The notes under the pieces: model-generated
What the model was told of the DNA's origin: nothing
Database searches by the model: none
The model's input: only the letters and a program-made list of their open reading frames with translations
In this document: positions 9,186-49,360 of the stretch, piece by piece
Layout of the letters: each line of letters opens with the position of its first letter
Position numbering within the stretch: position 1 is the stretch's first letter
NCBI GenBank assembly: GCA_019637645.1
Contig: JAHBVH010000046.1
Coordinates: forward strand, 1-64,000
DNA: 64,000 bases
Direction of reading: 5' to 3'
DNA from: Caldilineaceae bacterium
GTDB lineage: Bacteria > Chloroflexota > Anaerolineae > Caldilineales > Caldilineaceae
Program-made: the position numbers and the translations under genes

Positions 9186-9222
9186 GTCAATAGTCAATGG
9201 CCGTTAACCATTGACTATTGAC
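9186..9222. terminator. Bidirectional hairpin between uxuA and the sigma-factor gene
   Basis: A perfect 15-bp stem (GTCAATAGTCAATGG and its complement) with a 7-base loop lies between two convergent genes; it overlaps the last codons of the minus-strand gene. The left arm is built from three tandem TAGTCAA heptamers (9177-9197). Confidence 0.7.
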
Positions 9223-10753
9223 CATCCCTTGGGGCTTGATAAGTACCATCATAATAGTAGGCCGCTTCATCCACTGTCACCTGGCTTTTGACCGTCAGCC
9301 GCACCGGTGACGGCACCTTCTGAATGACCCCTTTGTCGGCCAACCACTCAAAAATATTGCTCAGTGGCTGGTTTTGGACTTGTTTGTGGAAATAGGTTTC
9401 GATCTCACTAGTCGTGCGGATGCCTTGCGCTTCCTGGAGATAATCGAGCACGGGGCCAAAGAGCAACAGCAGATTTTGATCAAGATATTGGTTGATCAGG
9501 TCGAGCGCTTGCTGAATGGTCGCCTCATCTTTTTTGCCGTGGATCAGATCATGGTAGATCGGGTTGAAGAAGGTTGGGTTGATCTTGGACGCTTGCGGAA
9601 TGACTTCCCGGCTGGTAATCTCCCCTTTGAGCAATACCTCAATCTCCGCTAAATATTTGATCGCATACATGATCCATAAAAAGCTATACGAAATATCCTT
9701 GCGGGTAATGAGCCATTTTTCCGCTTTCGCCAGCGTATATAATACGCCCGAACCCGAAACCATGAGACGCAGTTGCCGATCGCGCGCGCCAACACTTTGG
9801 GCATTGAGATAGAGTTCACGGATCGAATCATCGGTCGTGTAGATCAAGGTGCTCAGCGCAAACGCGGAATGCAGAAAAGTTCCTTGGAGTGCGCCTTCAA
9901 TGCTCGCCCGGAACTTACTCCGTGGCACCAGATCGACATGAATGTTAACGCCATTCTCGACCAAGGCAAAGTGGCGGAGCGGCTTTTCATCGCGCCCAAC
10001 TAACATAATATCAATATCGCTCTTGCGCCAAACCGTGTCATGGGACAAACTGCCATAGAGAATAGCCGCGATGATATAGCGATCTTGTTTTACCTTGGCA
10101 ATAAAGGCATCGAGCGCTTGGTTATAGAGCGCCACCGTTTCGGCAAATTGTTCATTGCGCGAAGGACGTTTCTCTTGTAGGGTATCACGGACCATAGCTT
10201 CCATTCCTTCTCGTAGTTTCTTACGGGCGTCAAAGAGCCGTTTTTTCACGGTGGTAACGGGTACTTCTAAAAAAGTAGCTATCTCGTTTTGCGAATAATC
10301 CCCAACATAGAAGAGCGCGGTGACCATGCGCTCATGTTCGGGCAAGGCGCGAATCGCGGCATAGACGCGAATCTGGCGCTCGACTTGTTCATAGGTGAGG
10401 ACCGGATCCGAATCGCGCGCGGGCAGATCCCAAATCGCATCCAACGAAACCAAGTCCAGCCGTTTGCCACGCGTCAGGCGGTTGCATTGCGTCAGCACAA
10501 TCCGTTTAAACCACCCTGGGAAGGCTTCCGGTTGGCGCAGCTGATCAAGGTTGCGCCAAGCACTGAGAAAGGCTTCTTGGGCCGCATCCTCGGCTAGGTG
10601 AAAATCACCAAGCACGGCATAGGCACAGCCAAACGCGAGATCCTGAAAACGTTGGACCACTTCGGCGAAGGCCAGTTGTTTATCCGCCCGCGCGGTGCGC
10701 TCAGCCGCCGCCCTGGCAATTAATTGGCTAATATCTTGCAAAGATCGATCCAA
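9215..10753 (-). CDS. ECF-type sigma factor fused to a nucleotidyltransferase domain
   Basis: This minus-strand protein joins two activities. Positions below count from a TTG at 10921, the longest frame (568 residues). Residues 84-150 match sigma70 region 2 (EDAAQEAFLSAWRNLD, then GWFKRIVLTQCNR). Residues 183-240 match region 4 with a helix-turn-helix (YSQNEIATFLEVPVTTVKKRL). Residues 280-335 form a Pol-beta-type nucleotidyltransferase: ILYGSLS, then SDIDIMLV (D302, D304) and a third acid D330. A helical region and a winged-helix-like tail (about 505-560) follow. No ATG lies near the N-terminus; I prefer the TTG at 10753 because GGAG precedes it by 10 bases. No anti-sigma gene is adjacent. 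The fusion implies transcription control linked to nucleotide transfer or sensing; the substrate is unknown. Confidence 0.82.
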   Translation of the reverse strand: MDRSLQDISQLIARAAAERTARADKQLAFAEVVQRFQDLAFGCAYAVLGDFHLAEDAAQEAFLSAWRNLDQLRQPEAFPGWFKRIVLTQCNRLTRGKRLDLVSLDAIWDLPARDSDPVLTYEQVERQIRVYAAIRALPEHERMVTALFYVGDYSQNEIATFLEVPVTTVKKRLFDARKKLREGMEAMVRDTLQEKRPSRNEQFAETVALYNQALDAFIAKVKQDRYIIAAILYGSLSHDTVWRKSDIDIMLVGRDEKPLRHFALVENGVNIHVDLVPRSKFRASIEGALQGTFLHSAFALSTLIYTTDDSIRELYLNAQSVGARDRQLRLMVSGSGVLYTLAKAEKWLITRKDISYSFLWIMYAIKYLAEIEVLLKGEITSREVIPQASKINPTFFNPIYHDLIHGKKDEATIQQALDLINQYLDQNLLLLFGPVLDYLQEAQGIRTTSEIETYFHKQVQNQPLSNIFEWLADKGVIQKVPSPVRLTVKSQVTVDEAAYYYDGTYQAPRDGQ

Positions 10754-11043
10754 TCTACGGTTACTCCGCCTGGTTATAGGTGCATTCTTACCACCGGCGA
10801 GCCTGCTTTGGTTTGTTCTGTCCTGCTTGACAAGCTTGTTATCATCAAGAGCCAATTTCCTACGCAAAGGATACCAACAAGGATGTAGAAACTGTTCGGC
10901 GCTAGGCAAGACAAACCACAACGCCTAACAATAATCAAAGCTGACATAAATAAAACGCAAAGATACAGAAATAACTAAAGAGCTACTGTAAAGCGAACTC
11001 TATTTTTACCAAAACTACCCGCCATCTTGTCAGGAAAATGCTA

Positions 11044-13952: not shown

Positions 13953-14068
13953 CCTGAAAATCTATTGTCGACCAAACCACCGATTGCGTCACCGACGCCA
14001 TACAACACAAACGCCGATAGATAGGCGTAGCAGCTGGTAGTTTGTTGGATGAGCACAGAGAGACAAGC

Positions 14069-15280
14069 ATGTACGAAAGTATGAAACAAGCGAACTCACG
14101 GTGGGCTGGCCCCCGGCCCACGCCTCCCACCCAGCAAAATACGTCGGCTTTGCAGACAAGCCAATATGACCTATCCACTAAACCGATCCACACAACGTTT
14201 GTGATGGAGCAGCATTTAGGTCACGCCACTTTCTATCAAAATCTGCGCCGCTGCCTCCAAAATGAAGCAGCCTTACACGCGCGTTGGGTAGAAGTCACCT
14301 ATCAGGATCACAGTCTTTGGTCAAAAGCGACGGCCTTTCTCTCCAACCACCATCAGGGGATTTTAGCCGGTCAGCGGCAAGTATTGGCGGGGCTCTATCA
14401 ACAACCCGATGATGTTGTCTTTTTTAATACCCAGGTGCCAGCAGCCTTGGTTAGCCATGCCCTCCGTCGGCGGCCCTACGTCCTCTGCACCGATATTACG
14501 CCGATCCAATATGATCGCATGGCCGCGGCCTATCACCATCAGCCCGACCGCAATCCACTAATGAAGACGATCAAACATCAACTCAATCGTCAGCTCTTTC
14601 GCCGGGCGACGCATTGGGTGCCGTGGTCGCAATGGGTACGGAAGTCGCTCATCGAAGATTACGATGTTGCACCGGAACGTATTACGGTGGTTCCCCCAGG
14701 GGTGGACATTGTGCAATGGCAACCCCAGCAGCATACGCAGTCGGGGGGTCCCACCCAAATCCTCTTTGTTGGTGGCGACTTTTATCGCAAAGGTGGCGAA
14801 TTGCTCCTAGAAGCCTTTCGCGCTTTGCCAGCCGGCAGTGCGGAATTGGTCTTGGTCACACGCTCACCCATCCAAGGGGGAGAAGGGGTCACCGTGCGGC
14901 AGGATCTACAGCCCAATTCGCCGGAACTCATTGCGCTCTACCAACGCAGTGATCTTTTTGTTCTGCCCACCAAAGCGGAAGCCTTTGGCATTGCCGCTGC
15001 CGAAGCCGCCGCCGTTGGCCTTCCCGTCATTGCGACCAACATTGGGGGCGTTAGCGATATTGTACGGCATCAGCAAACTGGGCTGCTCATGCAAAGCTAC
15101 ACGGTTGAACACTTACGGTCACTGCTCGAGCGCTTAATTGAAAACAGTGAGCAGCGCCTAGCCATGGGGCGAGCCGCGCGACAACATGTAGAGACCCATT
15201 TTGACGCCCAGAAAAATGCGCGGCGTATTCTTGATCTGCTTGTGCAGAGCGGACAACACCAATCGGATAGCAGCCCATAG
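14069..15280 (+). CDS. Glycosyltransferase family 4 (copy A)
   Basis: A 403-residue retaining GT-B glycosyltransferase of the GT4 type. The C-terminal half has the typical nucleotide-sugar site: PPGVDIVQWQP, ILFVGGDFYRKGGELLLEAF and the E-x7-E region KAEAFGIAAAEAAAVGLPVIAT, followed by a GGVSDIV segment. The start at 14069 is preferred over an in-frame TTG at 14042 because AGAGAGAC lies upstream of it. It is closely related in layout to the GT4 at 40791; both carry a VFFNTQVPA/LFIHTQVPA motif and a DxTPxQYD motif in the N-terminal acceptor domain, which suggests paralogy. Donor and acceptor sugars cannot be read from sequence. Confidence 0.88.
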   Translation: MYESMKQANSRWAGPRPTPPTQQNTSALQTSQYDLSTKPIHTTFVMEQHLGHATFYQNLRRCLQNEAALHARWVEVTYQDHSLWSKATAFLSNHHQGILAGQRQVLAGLYQQPDDVVFFNTQVPAALVSHALRRRPYVLCTDITPIQYDRMAAAYHHQPDRNPLMKTIKHQLNRQLFRRATHWVPWSQWVRKSLIEDYDVAPERITVVPPGVDIVQWQPQQHTQSGGPTQILFVGGDFYRKGGELLLEAFRALPAGSAELVLVTRSPIQGGEGVTVRQDLQPNSPELIALYQRSDLFVLPTKAEAFGIAAAEAAAVGLPVIATNIGGVSDIVRHQQTGLLMQSYTVEHLRSLLERLIENSEQRLAMGRAARQHVETHFDAQKNARRILDLLVQSGQHQSDSSP

Positions 15281-15362
15281 CCCATCGCATTGGCTGCCAC
15301 CACAACGGCCTAGCGGCCACGCTTCCACCACGGAAGCGCGTTCTGATGAAGGAAAGGTATTC

Positions 15363-17147
15363 ATGCAGGCTTTTCTCCTCGCTACCGGCGAAGGGAACAA
15401 ACTGACACCACTATCGACGACCCTTGCAACACCGATGTTGCCGATTGCCAACCGTCCTGTCATGGCGTATAGCGTTGAGCTCCTCGCGCGCGCAGGCGTA
15501 CAGGAGAGTTTTGTCAGTTTGTATCAATTCCCCGCAAGCATTGAAAACTATTTCGGCAACGGCGAACGGTGGAATCTCCAACTTCATTATCTTTTACAGC
15601 GTCAACCTTGGGGAGATGCCGGTGCGCTGAAACGCATGGCAGCCACCCGCAATGAGACCATCTTGCTCCTGCCCGCCGATGCACTCATTGATCTGGATCT
15701 GTCCGCGGCGCTGGCCTTTCATCGGCAGCACGGTGGCGCGGCAACCGCGATTGTAAGCCGCCATCACGCGGCGGCCGCGATTGTAAGCCCCCCGGCCAGG
15801 CCCCTGCTGCAACTGACCCCACAAGGCCACATTCAGCTGCCGACCGGAGCACACCATGCGTCGGCCAACCAGGACGATTTAGCGAGCTATACCGCGACGG
15901 GTGCCTATCTCCTGGAGCCCCAGGCACTTGCGCATATTCCCACCGGCATCGCTTTTACCATCCAGCCCCAGTTGCTCGCGGCTTTGGCACAGGCCGGTGA
16001 GGCCACCTATGGCTATGTCATGGCTGGCTATTGGAATCCTTTGCAGACCTTTGCCGATCTACAAGCGGCCCAAACGGCTTATCTACAAGGGCTGATCGGC
16101 TTGGGGCAGTTGGAGCAACCGCAGACGTTGCGGTATCTCTTTGCCGAAGGGTACGAAGTTCGCCCAGGGGTTTGGTGTGGTCCCAACAGCACCATTCATC
16201 CGACAGCGCGCCTAACGCCGCCAGTCTATGTGGGTGCCTATAGCCGGATCGAACGCGACGTGGAATTGGGTCCCCAGGTCGTCATTGGCGATCGTACCAT
16301 TGTGGATGAAGGGGCGACCTTGCGCGAGAGCACCGTGCTAGCGGATAGCTATGTGGGGCGCTTTCTGCATGTCGATCAACGTCTCATTCATCAAGAGCTG
16401 CTGATCGATGTACAAAGTGGGCAATATCTTCAAATTATCGATCCTTTCTGGCTGGCAGAAAACGATACTCAGTTGGCGTCGCGTGTGCTCAAGCAGGTTG
16501 CCGAACGCGCCTTGGCCAGCCTGCTCCTGCTCCTCGCGCTGCCGCTAGTGCTCCTTTTGGGCTTGCTGGTTGGAATCGCGACAGGTCAATGGCCCTTGGT
16601 CCGCCATACCTATGTGGGCAGCCGCCCCCACCGCGGCAAAGCGCAGCGGACAACATCGCCCCAAACACTGACCCTTTTTCGCTTGCGGACCCGAACCGAG
16701 CCGCATACCCCTTCGGCCTTGGAACGCTGGCTAGAAGCCAGTGAGCTACACCGTCTACCCGAACTCTGGCAGGTGGTCTGTGGCGAGTTAGGCTTGGTGG
16801 GTGTCAAACCCCTTACGCCAGAAGAAGCCAACCAAGTCACCGAAAGCTGGCAACAGAAACGGTACGATGCACCGGCTGGCTTTACAGGTCTATGGTACAC
16901 CGCGACGGTTCACCCAGCCAGCTTTGAGGAGATTTGCATCCTCGATACCTATTACGCGGCGACTCATACTTGGTCGCACAAATTCCAGCAGTTGCTTTAT
17001 ACCCCCCGCGCTTGGTGGCGGCATCTGCAAACCAGACGCGCCGTCCCGTCAACCGCGGCTTCAACAGCGAAAGCGGCTAGCGCCTATGGCCCCCTGCTCC
17101 ATCCACCGATTGGGGAAACAGCCGCCCGTAACTCGCGCATTCACTAG
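15363..17147 (+). CDS. Fused sugar-nucleotidyltransferase-like / beta-helix / degenerate phosphoglycosyltransferase protein
   Basis: A 594-residue three-part protein. Residues 1-240 resemble sugar-1-phosphate nucleotidyltransferases (GDP-mannose or glucose type), but the signature is altered: LATGEGNKLTPL instead of G-x-G-T-R-L, and ATPMLPI where the catalytic P-K-P lysine is expected. Residues 266-345 form a left-handed beta-helix of hexapeptide repeats. A membrane segment (384-406) leads to a domain like bacterial sugar transferases (PglC/WcaJ), with LPELWQVVCGELGLVG and GFTGLWYTATVHPASFEE. There the catalytic Asp-Glu of IDELPQ is replaced by H463-R464, and GPRP is GVKP. It is probably not a working enzyme in either role; scaffold or regulator is inferred. 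The start follows GAAGGAAAG. A shorter paralogue lies at 47117. Confidence 0.75.
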   Translation: MQAFLLATGEGNKLTPLSTTLATPMLPIANRPVMAYSVELLARAGVQESFVSLYQFPASIENYFGNGERWNLQLHYLLQRQPWGDAGALKRMAATRNETILLLPADALIDLDLSAALAFHRQHGGAATAIVSRHHAAAAIVSPPARPLLQLTPQGHIQLPTGAHHASANQDDLASYTATGAYLLEPQALAHIPTGIAFTIQPQLLAALAQAGEATYGYVMAGYWNPLQTFADLQAAQTAYLQGLIGLGQLEQPQTLRYLFAEGYEVRPGVWCGPNSTIHPTARLTPPVYVGAYSRIERDVELGPQVVIGDRTIVDEGATLRESTVLADSYVGRFLHVDQRLIHQELLIDVQSGQYLQIIDPFWLAENDTQLASRVLKQVAERALASLLLLLALPLVLLLGLLVGIATGQWPLVRHTYVGSRPHRGKAQRTTSPQTLTLFRLRTRTEPHTPSALERWLEASELHRLPELWQVVCGELGLVGVKPLTPEEANQVTESWQQKRYDAPAGFTGLWYTATVHPASFEEICILDTYYAATHTWSHKFQQLLYTPRAWWRHLQTRRAVPSTAASTAKAASAYGPLLHPPIGETAARNSRIH

Positions 17148-17414: not shown

Positions 17415-18443
17415 ATGTTACAAACCCTTTTTTCAGCCCAACGCCCCCAATTTGATGCCCTAGCCAACGCCTGGTTGCGCTCGGGTGCAACGGCCGTAAG
17501 TGTCTGGAGCCAAGAAGGGTTACTCGATCATTGGCCCCCCGACTCGGCGCTACCGACGAGCAACTTTAGCGAACCCATTCGCATGGGTAACCAAACCATT
17601 GGGGAGATTCGGGTGGCAGGCTATCAAGATGCCCCAGCCCACCGGCAATTAGCCTTCACCACCATGCTGATGTCGTATTTGACGGAGCTTGAAGTTGAGT
17701 TAGCGCTCGCTAGAAATGTACAGACCGGCTTCCTGCCGCTGAAATTTCCCCCCATTCCCGGGCTACAACTCTATGGCGAATCGCGGGCGGCCAAGCAAGT
17801 CAATGGCGACTACTACGATTTTATTCCGCTCTCCAACCATCAACTCCTCTTTGCCGTAGGCGATGTCGTCAACAAGGGGATGTCTGCCGCCTTGTTGATG
17901 GCCGTCATGCGCAAGGTGATCCGTACCGCGATTAAGTTAAGTGACACCCCTGCGCCCGCGGCCATTCTGAGCTATGTCAACACCGACATGTATGAAGAAT
18001 TTGATCGCAGTGCGACCTTTGCCACCGCCTTTGTGGGCCAATTTGACGCCACCCACCAAAAGCTGACCTATGTCAACGCTGGTCATGCCCCCGTGATCTA
18101 CCGGCCAGCCCAAGGCAAGGCCCAGCTTCTCCAAGCAGAGCATTTTCCGATTGGGATCACGGCCCAAAGCACCTATACCAACGGAACACTCCACCTCGCG
18201 GCGGACGATCTATTGATTATCGCCACCGATGGGTTGATCGAAGCCAGCAATCAAGCCGGCCAGTTCTTTGAGATCGAGACACTGTTGGCTCTGATCGATC
18301 AGCATAGTGACGATTCTGCCCAAAATCTGGCCGCGGTTATCTATGCCGCGGTCAATCAATTCTCCGCTGCCGCCGCCCCCGAAGACGATCAGACCGTCGT
18401 TGTTTTGAAGGGAACACCCCCACGCCCGTTTAGCGAAGGATAG
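17415..18443 (+). CDS. SpoIIE/RsbU-type PP2C serine phosphatase
   Basis: A 342-residue phosphatase of the PP2C SpoIIE family, which dephosphorylates STAS-domain anti-anti-sigma proteins in partner-switching systems. The N-terminal 100 residues look like a divergent sensory or linker region, then a short helix (LARNVQTGFLPLKFPPIPG, the usual RsbU switch segment) leads into the catalytic domain. Metal-binding acids are intact: VNGDYYDFI, AVGDVVNKGMSAALLMA, ATDGLIEA and EDDQTVVVL. The ATG follows GTGAGGATC. There is no membrane segment. The likely partners are the STAS protein (48410), the kinase (48938) and the STAS-fused WecG (45720) at the far end of the same island. Confidence 0.9.
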   Translation: MLQTLFSAQRPQFDALANAWLRSGATAVSVWSQEGLLDHWPPDSALPTSNFSEPIRMGNQTIGEIRVAGYQDAPAHRQLAFTTMLMSYLTELEVELALARNVQTGFLPLKFPPIPGLQLYGESRAAKQVNGDYYDFIPLSNHQLLFAVGDVVNKGMSAALLMAVMRKVIRTAIKLSDTPAPAAILSYVNTDMYEEFDRSATFATAFVGQFDATHQKLTYVNAGHAPVIYRPAQGKAQLLQAEHFPIGITAQSTYTNGTLHLAADDLLIIATDGLIEASNQAGQFFEIETLLALIDQHSDDSAQNLAAVIYAAVNQFSAAAAPEDDQTVVVLKGTPPRPFSEG

Positions 18444-44351: not shown

Positions 44352-44402
44352 CCTTGGGCCACTAGCCATTTCAACCGCACAATGCGCGGAGGAGAGGTTT
44401 GT

Positions 44403-45158
44403 ATGACACAACCGTTTCTAACTCATAAGCCACTGAATGAGCCAGCCGATCCAAAGGTGGCGCACATTCTACAGATGTATGCAGCCGAAGAATTTCCGGC
44501 AACCCGCGCCGAACGCCGCTTGCAAATGCGCCTTTTGCTCTGGAGCATTCAGTTGCAGATCGTCCAGCGCCTCAAGCGCGGCCTTGATCTTGTCTTAGCC
44601 AGCGTGGCAGTGCTCGCGCTTATGCCACTCATGCTGCTCACGGCGTTGGCCATTCGGCTCGAGTCACCTGGCCCTGTGATCTTTAAGCAGGCGCGCGTGG
44701 GTAAATGGGGCAAGCCCTTTACTTGCTATAAATTTCGCTCGATGTGTATTGATGCCGAGGCCCGGAAAAAAGAGTTGCTGAAACAAAATGAAGTCGATGG
44801 CCCCATCTTTAAGATGCAGGTGGACCCACGAGTAACTCGTGTAGGACGGATTATTCGCAAATTGAGCATTGATGAATTGCCGCAACTCTTTAATGTCATC
44901 AAAGGCGATATGAGCTTGGTCGGGCCACGCCCGCCTGTGCCCCAGGAAGTCAGCCAATACAAGTTTGATCACTTGCGCCGGTTGGATGCGATCCCAGGGT
45001 TAACTGGGCTGCAACAAGTCTCGGGCCGCAGCGACCTTTCCTTTGAACGCTGGGTAGAGCTAGATATGCAATATATTGCACAACAGAGCCTGCGCAAAGA
45101 TATTGAAATTTTACTCAAAACTATCCCAGCCGTCCTGTTAGGCAAGGGAGCGTATTAG
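44403..45158 (+). CDS. Polyprenyl-phosphate sugar-1-phosphate transferase (initiating transferase)
   Basis: A 251-residue phosphoglycosyltransferase of the PglC/WcaJ/WbaP catalytic type, which starts repeat-unit assembly by moving a sugar-1-phosphate to undecaprenyl phosphate. It has a re-entrant hydrophobic helix ([20 protein letters not shown]), [21 protein letters not shown], the catalytic Asp-Glu in [27 protein letters not shown] and [11 protein letters not shown]. All key residues are intact, in contrast to the related domain in the 15363 protein. GGAGGAGAGG precedes the ATG. It lacks the large N-terminal membrane domain of WcaJ. It closes this operon and is followed by a 561-base gap. 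Confidence 0.92.
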
Positions 45159-45719: not shown

Positions 45720-46910
45720 ATGCTTATGCGTAAATTGCTCATCATCTTGGGTACACCCATTGACGACATTAACATGGATGAAGCCTTGAATCGAATGGAA
45801 GACTTTATTGCCGCTGGCCGTGTCACCGGCAAGGGTCACCAAATCGCGACGGTCAATGCCGACTTTGTGGTGAAATCACTCCACGATGCAGAATTACGGC
45901 GCATTTTGCAGGAAGCCGATATGGCTACCGCCGATGGGATGCCCCTTGTTTGGAGTGCGCGCTTGTTGGGCGTGCCCATTGAAGGGCGCGTTACGGGTGC
46001 CGATATGGTACCCGCATTGGCCGAGCGAGCCGCCCAAAAAGGCTTTTCCATCTACTTTCTGGGCGCAGCACCAGGCGTAGCCAAAAAAGCAGCCCAGATC
46101 TTGCAACAGCAATATCCGAGCCTTAAAATTGCCGGGATCGCGTCGCCTTCGCCAGAAGAGGTCCAACAAGGGAATCCAGCCATCATTGCCGCGTGCAAAG
46201 CAGCCAAGCCTGACATTTTGCTGGTGGCCTTTGGCAATCCCAAACAGGAGAAATGGATCTACCGCCACGCCCAAGAGTTAGGCGTTCCGGTGATGATTGG
46301 CGTCGGCGGCACCTTTGACTTTATTGCGGGCGTTACCAAACGGGCCCCCTATTGGATGCAACAGAGCGGGCTCGAGTGGATCTATCGTTTGCTCCAACAG
46401 CCTGGCCGCCTCTGGAAGCGGTATACGACCGATTTCTTTGGCTTCGGCTACTTTTTCTTATGGCAGTGGTGGATCATGCAGCAGAAGAACTCTTCGACGC
46501 CCTTGTTACCAACCTCTGAGCTGATCACCGTACGTGAAACCGTCATTATGAATGTCAAAGGGCGGTTGGACCGCAGCAATCAGGACAGCTTTATGGAAAA
46601 AGCGTACCGTGCACTGGCCGAACAGCCCTATCTAGTTGTCAATTTGGCACAGACGGACTTTCTGGACAGCTCGGCCATTGGTACGTTAGTGGCGCTGTGC
46701 AAACAGGCCCGCGAGCGCGGAGGCAACCTCTGGCTGGTCAATGTACCCCATACGATTCAACAGGTGCTCTCACTCTTACGGCTCGACCAATTTTTCACGG
46801 TCTGCCCCACCATCGAAGAGGCATTACAAGATCGCCACCAATGGCGTATGGCCAAAGTGACCCACTATGCCATGGAACAAGGACAAAACAAGGTTATTGC
46901 CCTGAACTGA
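45720..46910 (+). CDS. WecG/TagA-family glycosyltransferase fused to a STAS domain
   Basis: A 396-residue two-domain protein. Residues 1-255 match the GT26 family (WecG/TagA/CpsF), which adds the second sugar to a lipid-linked precursor: VNADFVVKSLHDAELRRILQ, ATADGMPLVWSARLLG, RVTGADMVPALAERA, LVAFGNPKQEKWI and GVGGTFDFIAG. Residues 265-375 form a STAS domain as in anti-anti-sigma proteins: VIMNVKGRLDRSNQDSF, LVVNLAQTDFLDSSAIGTLV with candidate phosphorylated serines S317/S318, and GGNLWLVNVPHTIQQVLSLL. A perfect AAGGAGG site precedes the ATG. A STAS protein, a kinase and a phosphatase in the same island make direct phosphorylation control plausible. I know of no standard fusion of this kind. 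Confidence 0.87.
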   Translation: MLMRKLLIILGTPIDDINMDEALNRMEDFIAAGRVTGKGHQIATVNADFVVKSLHDAELRRILQEADMATADGMPLVWSARLLGVPIEGRVTGADMVPALAERAAQKGFSIYFLGAAPGVAKKAAQILQQQYPSLKIAGIASPSPEEVQQGNPAIIAACKAAKPDILLVAFGNPKQEKWIYRHAQELGVPVMIGVGGTFDFIAGVTKRAPYWMQQSGLEWIYRLLQQPGRLWKRYTTDFFGFGYFFLWQWWIMQQKNSSTPLLPTSELITVRETVIMNVKGRLDRSNQDSFMEKAYRALAEQPYLVVNLAQTDFLDSSAIGTLVALCKQARERGGNLWLVNVPHTIQQVLSLLRLDQFFTVCPTIEEALQDRHQWRMAKVTHYAMEQGQNKVIALN

Positions 46911-47116: not shown

Positions 47117-48346
47117 ATGCAAGCAATTTTGATTGCCACCGATGAGGGAAAAAATCTATACCCACTAACGGCGACCATGCCCTCATCGCTGCTACCGATC
47201 GCAGAGCGCCCTATTATCGTCTATGCGATCGAATTGCTGGCACGCGCCAGCATCTGTGACATCTTTATCGCTGTCGATGACCCGACAGGAATGCTGGCCG
47301 CAACGTTAGGCCAGGGCGAGCGGTGGAATGTCCAACTCCACTATCACCTCCCGGCTGCCTTGGATGAAACCTGCCTCGTGCTGCCCGCCGATGCCCTGCT
47401 CGATCTAGCGATTGAAGATGCTTTGGCCTATCACCAAAGCCATGGCAGGCCGGTCACGGCCATTCGCGGTCGGCAGCAGTGGCGCAACGCTGAAATTCGC
47501 GAGACCGGTGCCTTTCTTGTGGAACCCACTTGGCTAAATACGCTGCTGAAACCAGTAGCTGCGGCGGAGCGAGCCCAGTTGCTGGCCTCGTTGCACCAAA
47601 GCCACACACCGGCGGCTGATTACGTGATGACAGGGTATTGGAATGCATTGCGCGATTTCGGTGACTTCCAAGCCGCCCAGCAAACCGTCTTGGCGAGTCT
47701 GCATCCCATGGGCGCAGCGGCGCCATCATCCCTGCTGCGCTACCCCTACGTCGAAGCAGGCGAAGTGCAACCGGGCATTTGGGTTGCACCGCATTGCATC
47801 ATCCATCCCACGGCCCAGCTGACAGCACCGCTTTTGATCGGTACGGGTTGCCGCATTGGCCCCCACGTAGAAGTCGGGCCGGGAACCGTGCTTGGGGCAG
47901 GGGTTGTCTTGGATGAGGGCGTTACGATCCAAGCGAGCACAGTACTCCCTAACACCTATGTCGGCCAATTCTTGCACCTAGCTCAACGTGTCGCTTATCA
48001 CGCGGAACTGATTGATATCGAAACCGGCACGAATGTGCAAATTGCCGATCCTTGGCTGTTAGCCCAAGTGAACCCAACCTTGGCCAGCGATCTAGCGCAG
48101 ACGATCAGCCAGAAAGTGCAGACGCTGGTGCTTGGCCTCTTGAAACCCTTACTGGCCTTGATCGGTTTCGTGATGGGGCTTGTGCTCCCAAAGCGCGACT
48201 TAGGTCACTTTGGACAGCAGGGGGCAACGCCCACACCGTTACAGACAAACAGTGTTTATGAGTTCAAGGCCCCGCCTGCGACCGCAACAGCACTGAATGC
48301 AAACCAACGGTTGGAATTGGCCGAGCTCTATCGGCGACCTGAATAG
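47117..48346 (+). CDS. Truncated nucleotidyltransferase-like / beta-helix paralogue
   Basis: A 409-residue paralogue of the 15363 protein. The nucleotidyltransferase-like part begins LIATDEGKNLYPLTATMPSSLLPIAERP: both the G-x-G-T-R-L arginine and the P-K-P lysine are lost, though the LPADALLDL acid remains. A beta-helix (about 215-300; QPGIWVAPHCIIHPTAQLTAPLLIG) and a membrane segment (about 340-360) follow. The end, LELAELYRRPE, corresponds to the point of the sister protein just past its altered dyad (LEASELHRLPE), where this protein stops, so nearly the whole transferase domain is missing. GAGGGAG precedes the ATG. Enzyme activity is unlikely. Confidence 0.72.
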   Translation: MQAILIATDEGKNLYPLTATMPSSLLPIAERPIIVYAIELLARASICDIFIAVDDPTGMLAATLGQGERWNVQLHYHLPAALDETCLVLPADALLDLAIEDALAYHQSHGRPVTAIRGRQQWRNAEIRETGAFLVEPTWLNTLLKPVAAAERAQLLASLHQSHTPAADYVMTGYWNALRDFGDFQAAQQTVLASLHPMGAAAPSSLLRYPYVEAGEVQPGIWVAPHCIIHPTAQLTAPLLIGTGCRIGPHVEVGPGTVLGAGVVLDEGVTIQASTVLPNTYVGQFLHLAQRVAYHAELIDIETGTNVQIADPWLLAQVNPTLASDLAQTISQKVQTLVLGLLKPLLALIGFVMGLVLPKRDLGHFGQQGATPTPLQTNSVYEFKAPPATATALNANQRLELAELYRRPE

Positions 48347-48409: not shown

Positions 48410-48790
48410 GTGAATTTACAGGTTCATGTCTTTGATCATGTCACATTAATTAAAATTGCTGGTCGCATTGATACGCACACCGCGCAGCGGTTGCGCCAAC
48501 AATTGCACGCGAGTATGGAAGACAGCAATAAAAATATTATCCTCGATTTGGGTGGCGTTGACTTTATCGATTCCAGCGGTTTGGCGACCATCGTACATGC
48601 CATGAAGCAATGTCGTGCCGGTGGTGGCGATCTGCGCCTGAGCAAACCACCGCAAACGGTGCGGATGGTCTTAGAGTTGACTCGGCTCGACAAAGCCATG
48701 GACATCTATCCGACCACCGAAGGGGCCTTGCTCTCTTTTGTAGCGCCTCAGGTTGTGACCGAAACCCAACCGGCACTCCCGGTTCTCTAA
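48410..48790 (+). CDS. STAS-domain anti-anti-sigma factor
   Basis: A 126-residue single STAS domain, like SpoIIAA/RsbV. In partner switching, the unphosphorylated form binds the kinase/anti-sigma protein and frees its other target. Visible are IKIAGRIDTHTAQRLRQQL, ILDLGGVDFIDSSGLATIVHAMK with candidate phospho-serines S55/S56, and GGDLRLSKPPQTVRMVLELT. The start is a GTG after AAGGAAAGAAGAAGG. It lies 147 bases ahead of the kinase gene and 63 after the truncated nucleotidyltransferase-like gene. Its sequence pattern parallels the STAS domain fused to WecG. Confidence 0.92.
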   Translation: MNLQVHVFDHVTLIKIAGRIDTHTAQRLRQQLHASMEDSNKNIILDLGGVDFIDSSGLATIVHAMKQCRAGGGDLRLSKPPQTVRMVLELTRLDKAMDIYPTTEGALLSFVAPQVVTETQPALPVL

Positions 48791-48937: not shown

Positions 48938-49360
48938 ATGGAGAAACCGGAAACTTTTTGGCTGAAATTGCCGGCGCGCTTTCGCTATCTCAAACTCATT
49001 ACGGATGGCATTGAACTTTTGCTCGCCGAGTTACCCCAACGAGCAGCCCAGGAAACTGTTGTCTACGGGCTGAAACTAGCTGTCCATGAAGTCGCCAATA
49101 ATATTATTGAACATGCCTATCAGGATGAAGAGGGGCTTCTCGAGGTGACCTTACAGTTCGACCCCACATCCGCCCGTTTCACCGCCCACCTAGCGGATAC
49201 GGGGCTTCGCTTCGACGCCGCCCAAAGCACGACGCCATCCCTTGACGAGCCGCAGGAATCTGGGTATGGCCTTTTCCTCGCCCAGCAGTTTATGGATGAA
49301 GTTACCTACACACGGCAAGCAGATCGCAACCATTGGCGGTTGAGCAAACAGCTTGTCTAA
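48938..49360 (+). CDS. RsbW/SpoIIAB-like serine kinase (anti-sigma-type regulator)
   Basis: A 140-residue GHKL-fold ATP-binding protein of the HATPase_c_2 group. These kinases phosphorylate STAS proteins and sequester a target, usually a sigma factor. The N-box is LAVHEVANNIIEHAY, the G1 box HLADTGLRFD and the G2-like lid SGYGLFLAQQFMDEV, all intact. GGAG precedes the ATG. No sigma factor gene is adjacent; the only one in the window is the fused one at 9.2 kb, of a different class. Together with the STAS protein upstream and the phosphatase at 17.4 kb it completes a partner-switching module. Confidence 0.9.
   Translation: MEKPETFWLKLPARFRYLKLITDGIELLLAELPQRAAQETVVYGLKLAVHEVANNIIEHAYQDEEGLLEVTLQFDPTSARFTAHLADTGLRFDAAQSTTPSLDEPQESGYGLFLAQQFMDEVTYTRQADRNHWRLSKQLV

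Follow-up and report, generated by a model that had tools for sequence, protein, structure and literature searches.

The locus described here raises the question of whether partner switching, best known for the control of sigma factors, can act directly on a biosynthetic enzyme. In a 64,000-nucleotide stretch from a Caldilineaceae bacterium (contig JAHBVH010000046.1, positions 1 to 64,000; hereafter the window), an open reading frame (ORF) at positions 45720–46910 of the plus strand encodes a 396-amino acid protein, in which Pfam domains, alignment and predicted structure identify a GT26 glycosyltransferase fused to a C-terminal STAS domain. The window also encodes a standalone STAS protein (48410–48790), an RsbW-like kinase candidate (48938–49360) and an RsbU-like phosphatase (17415–18443), as the initial annotation had stated, and in relatives these genes and the fused gene are arranged as a single colinear operon. 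We consider it probable, at roughly 55%, that this partner-switching module sets the activity of the TagA-like GT26 enzyme, which would contribute to an undecaprenyl-phosphate-linked exopolysaccharide, via the enzyme's own fused STAS domain.

The fused ORF is intact, starts with ATG and is preceded by a ribosome-site-like AAGGAGG. Both Pfam domains scored above their cut-offs: Glyco_tran_WecG (PF03808) at residues 66–235 with 222.2 bits (cut-off 27.4), and STAS (PF01740) at residues 271–368 with 69.7 bits (cut-off 22.6). The same was found for TIGR00696 with the fused ORF (163 bits, cut-off 69) and for TIGR00377 with the fused STAS (61.2 bits, cut-off 53.45). Scores for two equivalogs remained below the cut-offs, namely TarA/TagA (ManNAc transferase, NF041710; 128.2 bits, cut-off 350) and, for the fused STAS, SpoIIAA (TIGR02886; 47.7 bits, cut-off 114.75). 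The glycosyltransferase part spans approximately residues 1–206 and is followed by a catalytic C-terminal appendage with a hydrophobic helix (approximately 207–254). This helix reaches residue 254 and holds the strongly aromatic stretch FFGFGYFFLWQWW; after a lower-confidence linker comes a single STAS domain (approximately 263–375). The predicted structure matched the TagA fold and kinase-bound SpoIIAA.

Alignment placed T37, D65, R214 and R221 of TagA at T44, D72, R223 and R230 of the fused protein, and these four residues were invariant in all 53 aligned sequences. In TagA, D65 is the likely base, T37 contacts the sugar, and R214, R221 and R224 are part of the C-terminal appendage; activity depends on this appendage, which holds TagA at the membrane and is masked when the enzyme forms its inactive dimer (PMC6493773). 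The fused protein resembles TagA and TarA in the glycosyltransferase fold, in the equivalents of these four residues and in the membrane-binding appendage, but unlike them the fusion type has one or two STAS domains behind the appendage, and a lysine at the position equivalent to R224.

The initial annotation knew of no standard GT26-STAS fusion and proposed a search for this architecture in databases. Such fusions turned out to be numerous and are already visible in automatic annotation: all 120 homologues listed out of 4796 (the window's own protein included) combine GT26 with STAS. The fusion was found in Chloroflexota, Armatimonadota and Acidobacteriota, and in the four examples tested outside Chloroflexota (L042, L043, L052 and L055) the STAS domain was above the Pfam cut-off. 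It is not universal in Chloroflexota. Among 121 genomes of this phylum, 68 had a GT26 match (E ≤ 1e-40), and the fused type was seen in five, including the genome at the centre of the search, with about one-third of the GT26 matches checked for STAS. A sequencing artefact or accidental join was rejected because the identical join occurs in many separate genomes.

The predicted phosphorylation site lies in the segment D316-S317-S318, present as had been claimed and encoded by codons at 46665–46673 of the plus strand (computed from the ORF start). S317, the predicted phospho-acceptor, aligns with SpoIIAA Ser58, which is named as the phosphorylation site (PMC11418112). D316 and S317 were invariant in the 120 listed homologues; S318 varied (S in 78, A in 22, T in 16 and R in 3). 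Across positions 269–371 (103 positions), only F314, D316, S317, G321 and L355 were invariant in this set, and G321 was also invariant in the 53 aligned sequences. A second tandem STAS domain follows in 56 of the 120 listed homologues, which exceed 470 amino acids (for example L025 10001–11518, P0068 and P0095). In all 56, the first site is D-S and the second STAS also keeps its Ser, with the Asp position occupied by A (35), T (13) or S (8). The first fused (31 sequences), second fused (30) and standalone (29) STAS domains separated in trees, and the phospho-Ser was kept in 30/31 (one unaligned), 29/30 and 29/29 of them, respectively.

Scanning genome contigs yielded 94 confirmed stretches, from which 80 loci were kept, 41 of them labelled Chloroflexota. 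In 28 of the 80 loci, kinase, phosphatase and STAS are encoded together with the fused gene in a colinear operon, in the order polyprenyl-phosphate sugar transferase (PGT), GT26-STAS, nucleotidyltransferase, STAS, SpoIIE phosphatase, HATPase kinase; all six genes lie in this order on one strand in 25 loci, and the other three lack only the PGT. Partial operons were found in four further loci, two of them close to a contig end. Of the 28 loci that have both SpoIIE and HATPase, 16 show an overlap of the two frames, which amounts to a single base in 13 (stop codon excluded, starts assigned mechanically). A named strain, Chloroflexus islandicus isl-2, has the full operon, five parts of which were confirmed by Pfam; its phosphatase carries a GAF domain too. 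In the window, the order is PGT (44382–45158, D-E pair intact), GT26-STAS, nucleotidyltransferase (47117–48346), standalone STAS (anti-sigma antagonist type, with its own D-S-S) and HATPase, all on the plus strand and with intergenic gaps of 561, 206, 63 and 147 bases. The phosphatase gene, also on the plus strand and encoding a SpoIIE/RsbU-type PPM protein, is displaced from its usual interval between STAS and HATPase, and the operon of the window looks split in two.

The kinase candidate matched HATPase_c_2 (PF13581) with 74.9 bits (cut-off 27.4) and did not reach the RsbW equivalogs NF003144 (45.3 of 145 bits) and TIGR01924 (38.8 of 155.05 bits). Its Glu51 and Asn55 were invariant in the 21 aligned operon kinases, and Glu51 aligns with the RsbW glutamate that touches RsbV Ser56 (PMC7340262).

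Retention of the phospho-Ser was compared with the presence of a nearby kinase gene in the 64 loci with enough flanking sequence; 16 of the 80 loci, with flanks too short, were left out, and L051, on a short contig, was uncounted. Ser and kinase occurred together in 30 loci, Ser without kinase in five, kinase without Ser in none and neither in 29, so that S317 was kept in every locus with a kinase nearby. Ser was missing at this position in all 25 Acidobacteriota fusions, none of which has a kinase nearby. In seven of the nine Armatimonadota fusions, Asp is followed by Gly or Ala, again with no kinase nearby; L042 and L051 keep Asp-Ser. L041, which carries no phylum label, has Cys. Among the exceptions, three Chloroploca genomes encode an orthologous SpoIIE phosphatase and HATPase elsewhere, away from the fused gene. 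In two of them the region reads PGT, nucleotidyltransferase, STAS, SpoIIE, HATPase, without the fused gene, and in the third STAS, SpoIIE and HATPase stand at the start of a contig. The Armatimonadota genome of L051 encodes, also elsewhere, SpoIIE and HATPase in one ORF (L110, 3–1727) that adjoins a STAS gene (1813–2109).

In the mechanism that we propose, the HATPase would bind the unphosphorylated fused STAS domain and phosphorylate S317, the SpoIIE-type phosphatase would take the phosphate off, and the standalone STAS protein would be a second client competing for the kinase; phosphorylation, this competition and an effect on catalysis are what we infer for the module. The fused STAS would sit behind the appendage whose TagA counterpart has to pack against the active site at the membrane, and docking of the kinase or phosphorylation would decide whether the appendage can do so. 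The simplest assignment would be that the kinase-bound enzyme is off and the kinase-free enzyme is on. Pathways such as that of wall teichoic acid begin with a PGT step and then a GT26 step, and control at the latter would halt the flux after the first sugar. In the RsbV-RsbW tetramer, two STAS proteins are bound to a kinase dimer (PMC7340262). A kinase dimer would similarly pair two GT26 units, and since the TagA dimer is inactive, this analogy suggests that the kinase-bound state is off, although the sign of the switch is a guess. More tentatively, with slightly less than even odds, we propose a partner switch that has as its client, in place of a sigma factor, the STAS domain or pair of domains covalently joined to a glycosyltransferase encoded in the same operon. 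Such a switch would turn undecaprenyl-linked glycan assembly on and off post-translationally at an early step at the membrane; one kinase and one sensor phosphatase would read as many as three phosphorylatable STAS domains, one of them free and two carried by the enzyme.

The suggestion of the initial annotation that polymer synthesis is switched at the enzyme level, rather than only through a sigma factor, could be upheld in part. It agrees with the colinear operon of the relatives, with the S317 retention near kinases and with the lack of a sigma-70 region-2 (PF04542) match on the operon contig in all four genomes for which that contig is known; sigma genes are present elsewhere in these genomes. 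Several observations weigh against it and against our preferred reading. The Fisher test of the Ser-kinase association gave p = 2e-13, which is not independent evidence, because on the glycosyltransferase tree the Ser label requires only two changes and the kinase label three, leaving one or two independent pairs; phylogenetically independent support was sought on this tree and not obtained. Two loci keep D-S in genomes without the complete set of partners: for L033, a weaker STAS-HATPase-STAS module and no orthologous phosphatase were found in the genome, and for L042, neither the orthologous operon kinase nor the phosphatase. The persistence of Ser-less fused STAS domains in Acidobacteriota and most Armatimonadota indicates that the domain has some Ser-independent role. 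Fused and standalone domains also differ at kinase-facing positions, and one kinase may therefore not serve both: position 284 is D in 18/31 fused and 28/29 standalone domains; position 326 (SpoIIAA R67) is L in 26/31 fused (three unaligned) and G or A in 29/29 standalone; and position 348, which we take to be kinase-facing, is Q or R in 22/31 fused (five unaligned) and M in 25/29 standalone. The kinase contacts of RsbV given in PMC7340262 were mapped for Asp23 and Ser56 only. In the glycosyltransferase part, the third appendage arginine of TagA, R224, aligns with K233, and the next residue, R234, is invariant in all 53 aligned sequences. The arguments about the sign diverge, as TagA dimers would make the kinase-bound form inactive, and SypA indicates no more than that the unphosphorylated form is active. 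In the window, 27 kb separate the phosphatase gene, which follows a second nucleotidyltransferase-pseudoPGT gene, from the fused gene. Finally, an extracytoplasmic function (ECF)-like sigma ORF lies at 9215–10921 of the minus strand, 6.5 kb from the phosphatase gene, so that a further, sigma-dependent output may exist. This ORF, the only sigma-like one among the scanned ORFs of the window, joins sigma-70 regions 2 and 4 to a Polbeta-type nucleotidyltransferase domain.

Other explanations were weighed against this reading. The fused STAS could be a docking or scaffold module in a stressosome-like assembly, with phosphorylation setting the location of the enzyme and not its catalysis. Such a module would place the glycosyltransferase beside the kinase, the phosphatase and standalone or other STAS proteins, in keeping with the Ser-less domains, with the two fused STAS domains in nearly half of the listed homologues (56/120) and with the presence of RsbS and stressosome STAS among the fold matches of the model. 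We regard this as unlikely, given that the invariant D-S and the colinear kinase and phosphatase genes point to a switch. A purely structural role in stability or dimerisation, with the operon kinase and phosphatase acting on the standalone STAS alone, would also accommodate the Ser-less domains, as well as the separate grouping of fused and standalone STAS with their different kinase-facing residues. It appears very improbable, however, since no more than five of the 103 positions are invariant, D316 and S317 being two of them, and a mere spacer would not need the Ser that the second STAS keeps in 56/56.

Information might instead flow in the reverse direction: to report the state of substrate or membrane, the fused STAS would tie up the kinase, which would in turn act on the standalone STAS and on some output, possibly a transcriptional one. 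The standalone STAS of the same operon, with its own invariant Ser (29/29), and the ECF-like ORF of the window would fit this idea, but the operon contigs of the four genomes lack a sigma-70 region-2 match and no output gene was recognised, which makes it a rather improbable alternative.

Control of the enzyme through its fused STAS, the reading that we prefer, has partial precedents. The SpoIIAA-SpoIIAB-SpoIIE and RsbV-RsbW-RsbU switches have the same D-S STAS, HATPase and PPM phosphatase, and kinase-bound STAS is among our fold matches; here, in contrast, the STAS is fused to an enzyme and the operon contig lacks a sigma gene in the four genomes. In Vibrio fischeri, SypA and SypE likewise combine a STAS protein with a Ser kinase/phosphatase serving a polysaccharide locus, and unphosphorylated SypA is the active form (PMC4517449); SypA is, however, a lone STAS protein whose target is given as unknown in that paper, whereas here the STAS is within a biosynthetic enzyme. 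SiaC of the Pseudomonas aeruginosa SiaABCD system activates the diguanylate cyclase SiaD via its oligomeric state (PMC8457831), acting in trans on a cyclic di-GMP enzyme and not in cis on a glycosyltransferase. HmpU/HmpV/HmpW of Nostoc punctiforme form a partner switch of a hormogonium motility and polysaccharide locus, again with an unknown target, and the passage of the review that describes it mentions no enzyme fusion (PMC8256260). The same review cites Anabaena all4160 as a STAS-bearing glycosyltransferase, with the STAS at the N-terminus (PMC8256260); the source for all4160 is reportedly Wang 2007, on the heterocyst envelope polysaccharide. A STAS-glycosyltransferase fusion as such has already been cited, and what is described here is a putative partner switch that has its client enzyme attached in cis. 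Among CC-licensed PMC literature, judged mostly by title and the start of the abstract, no paper on a GT26-STAS fusion was found. The operon layout suggests that the enzyme itself is the point at which surface-polysaccharide production is switched. If so, the STAS target, given as unknown in the papers on the SypA and HmpV loci, would here be covalently attached and the question directly testable, and control of a GT26 enzyme would run through the appendage on which TagA activity depends.

The nucleotidyltransferases of the operons contain a left-handed beta-helix (LbH) and end in a conserved Bac_transf-like domain without the catalytic Asp-Glu pair of PGTs. In this pseudo-PGT domain the Glu is replaced in 36/36 aligned sequences (by Arg in 34), and the adjoining true PGT, also of the Bac_transf type, keeps D-E in 39/39. 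The 47117–48346 protein belongs to this NTP-LbH-pseudoPGT family and has lost most of its last domain, the pseudo-PGT being cut off. A second member, upstream of the phosphatase gene, lies at 15201–17147 of the plus strand; its start is uncertain, and it overlaps the ORF at 14042–15280. Rfam at gathering thresholds gave no match over the window, which also encodes a flippase-type protein, an O-antigen-ligase-type protein and further glycosyltransferases.

Other arrangements were seen among the scanned genomes. In G006 and G007 (Chloroflexus) and in G126 (loci L141, L142 and L143), one or two HATPase genes and a STAS gene come after a plain GT26 gene, all in the same orientation. We did not adopt these as an unfused ancestor, as a carboxyl-transferase gene intervenes in L141 and the link may be incidental. 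The ORF at 277–2262 of L129 combines GT2 and GT26 glycosyltransferases. A contig titled Gracilibacteria (L046) carries a complete Chloroflexota-type operon, in which the fused gene shows two overlapping frames; its GT26 is a long branch beside Chloroflexus, and the contig is probably mis-binned.
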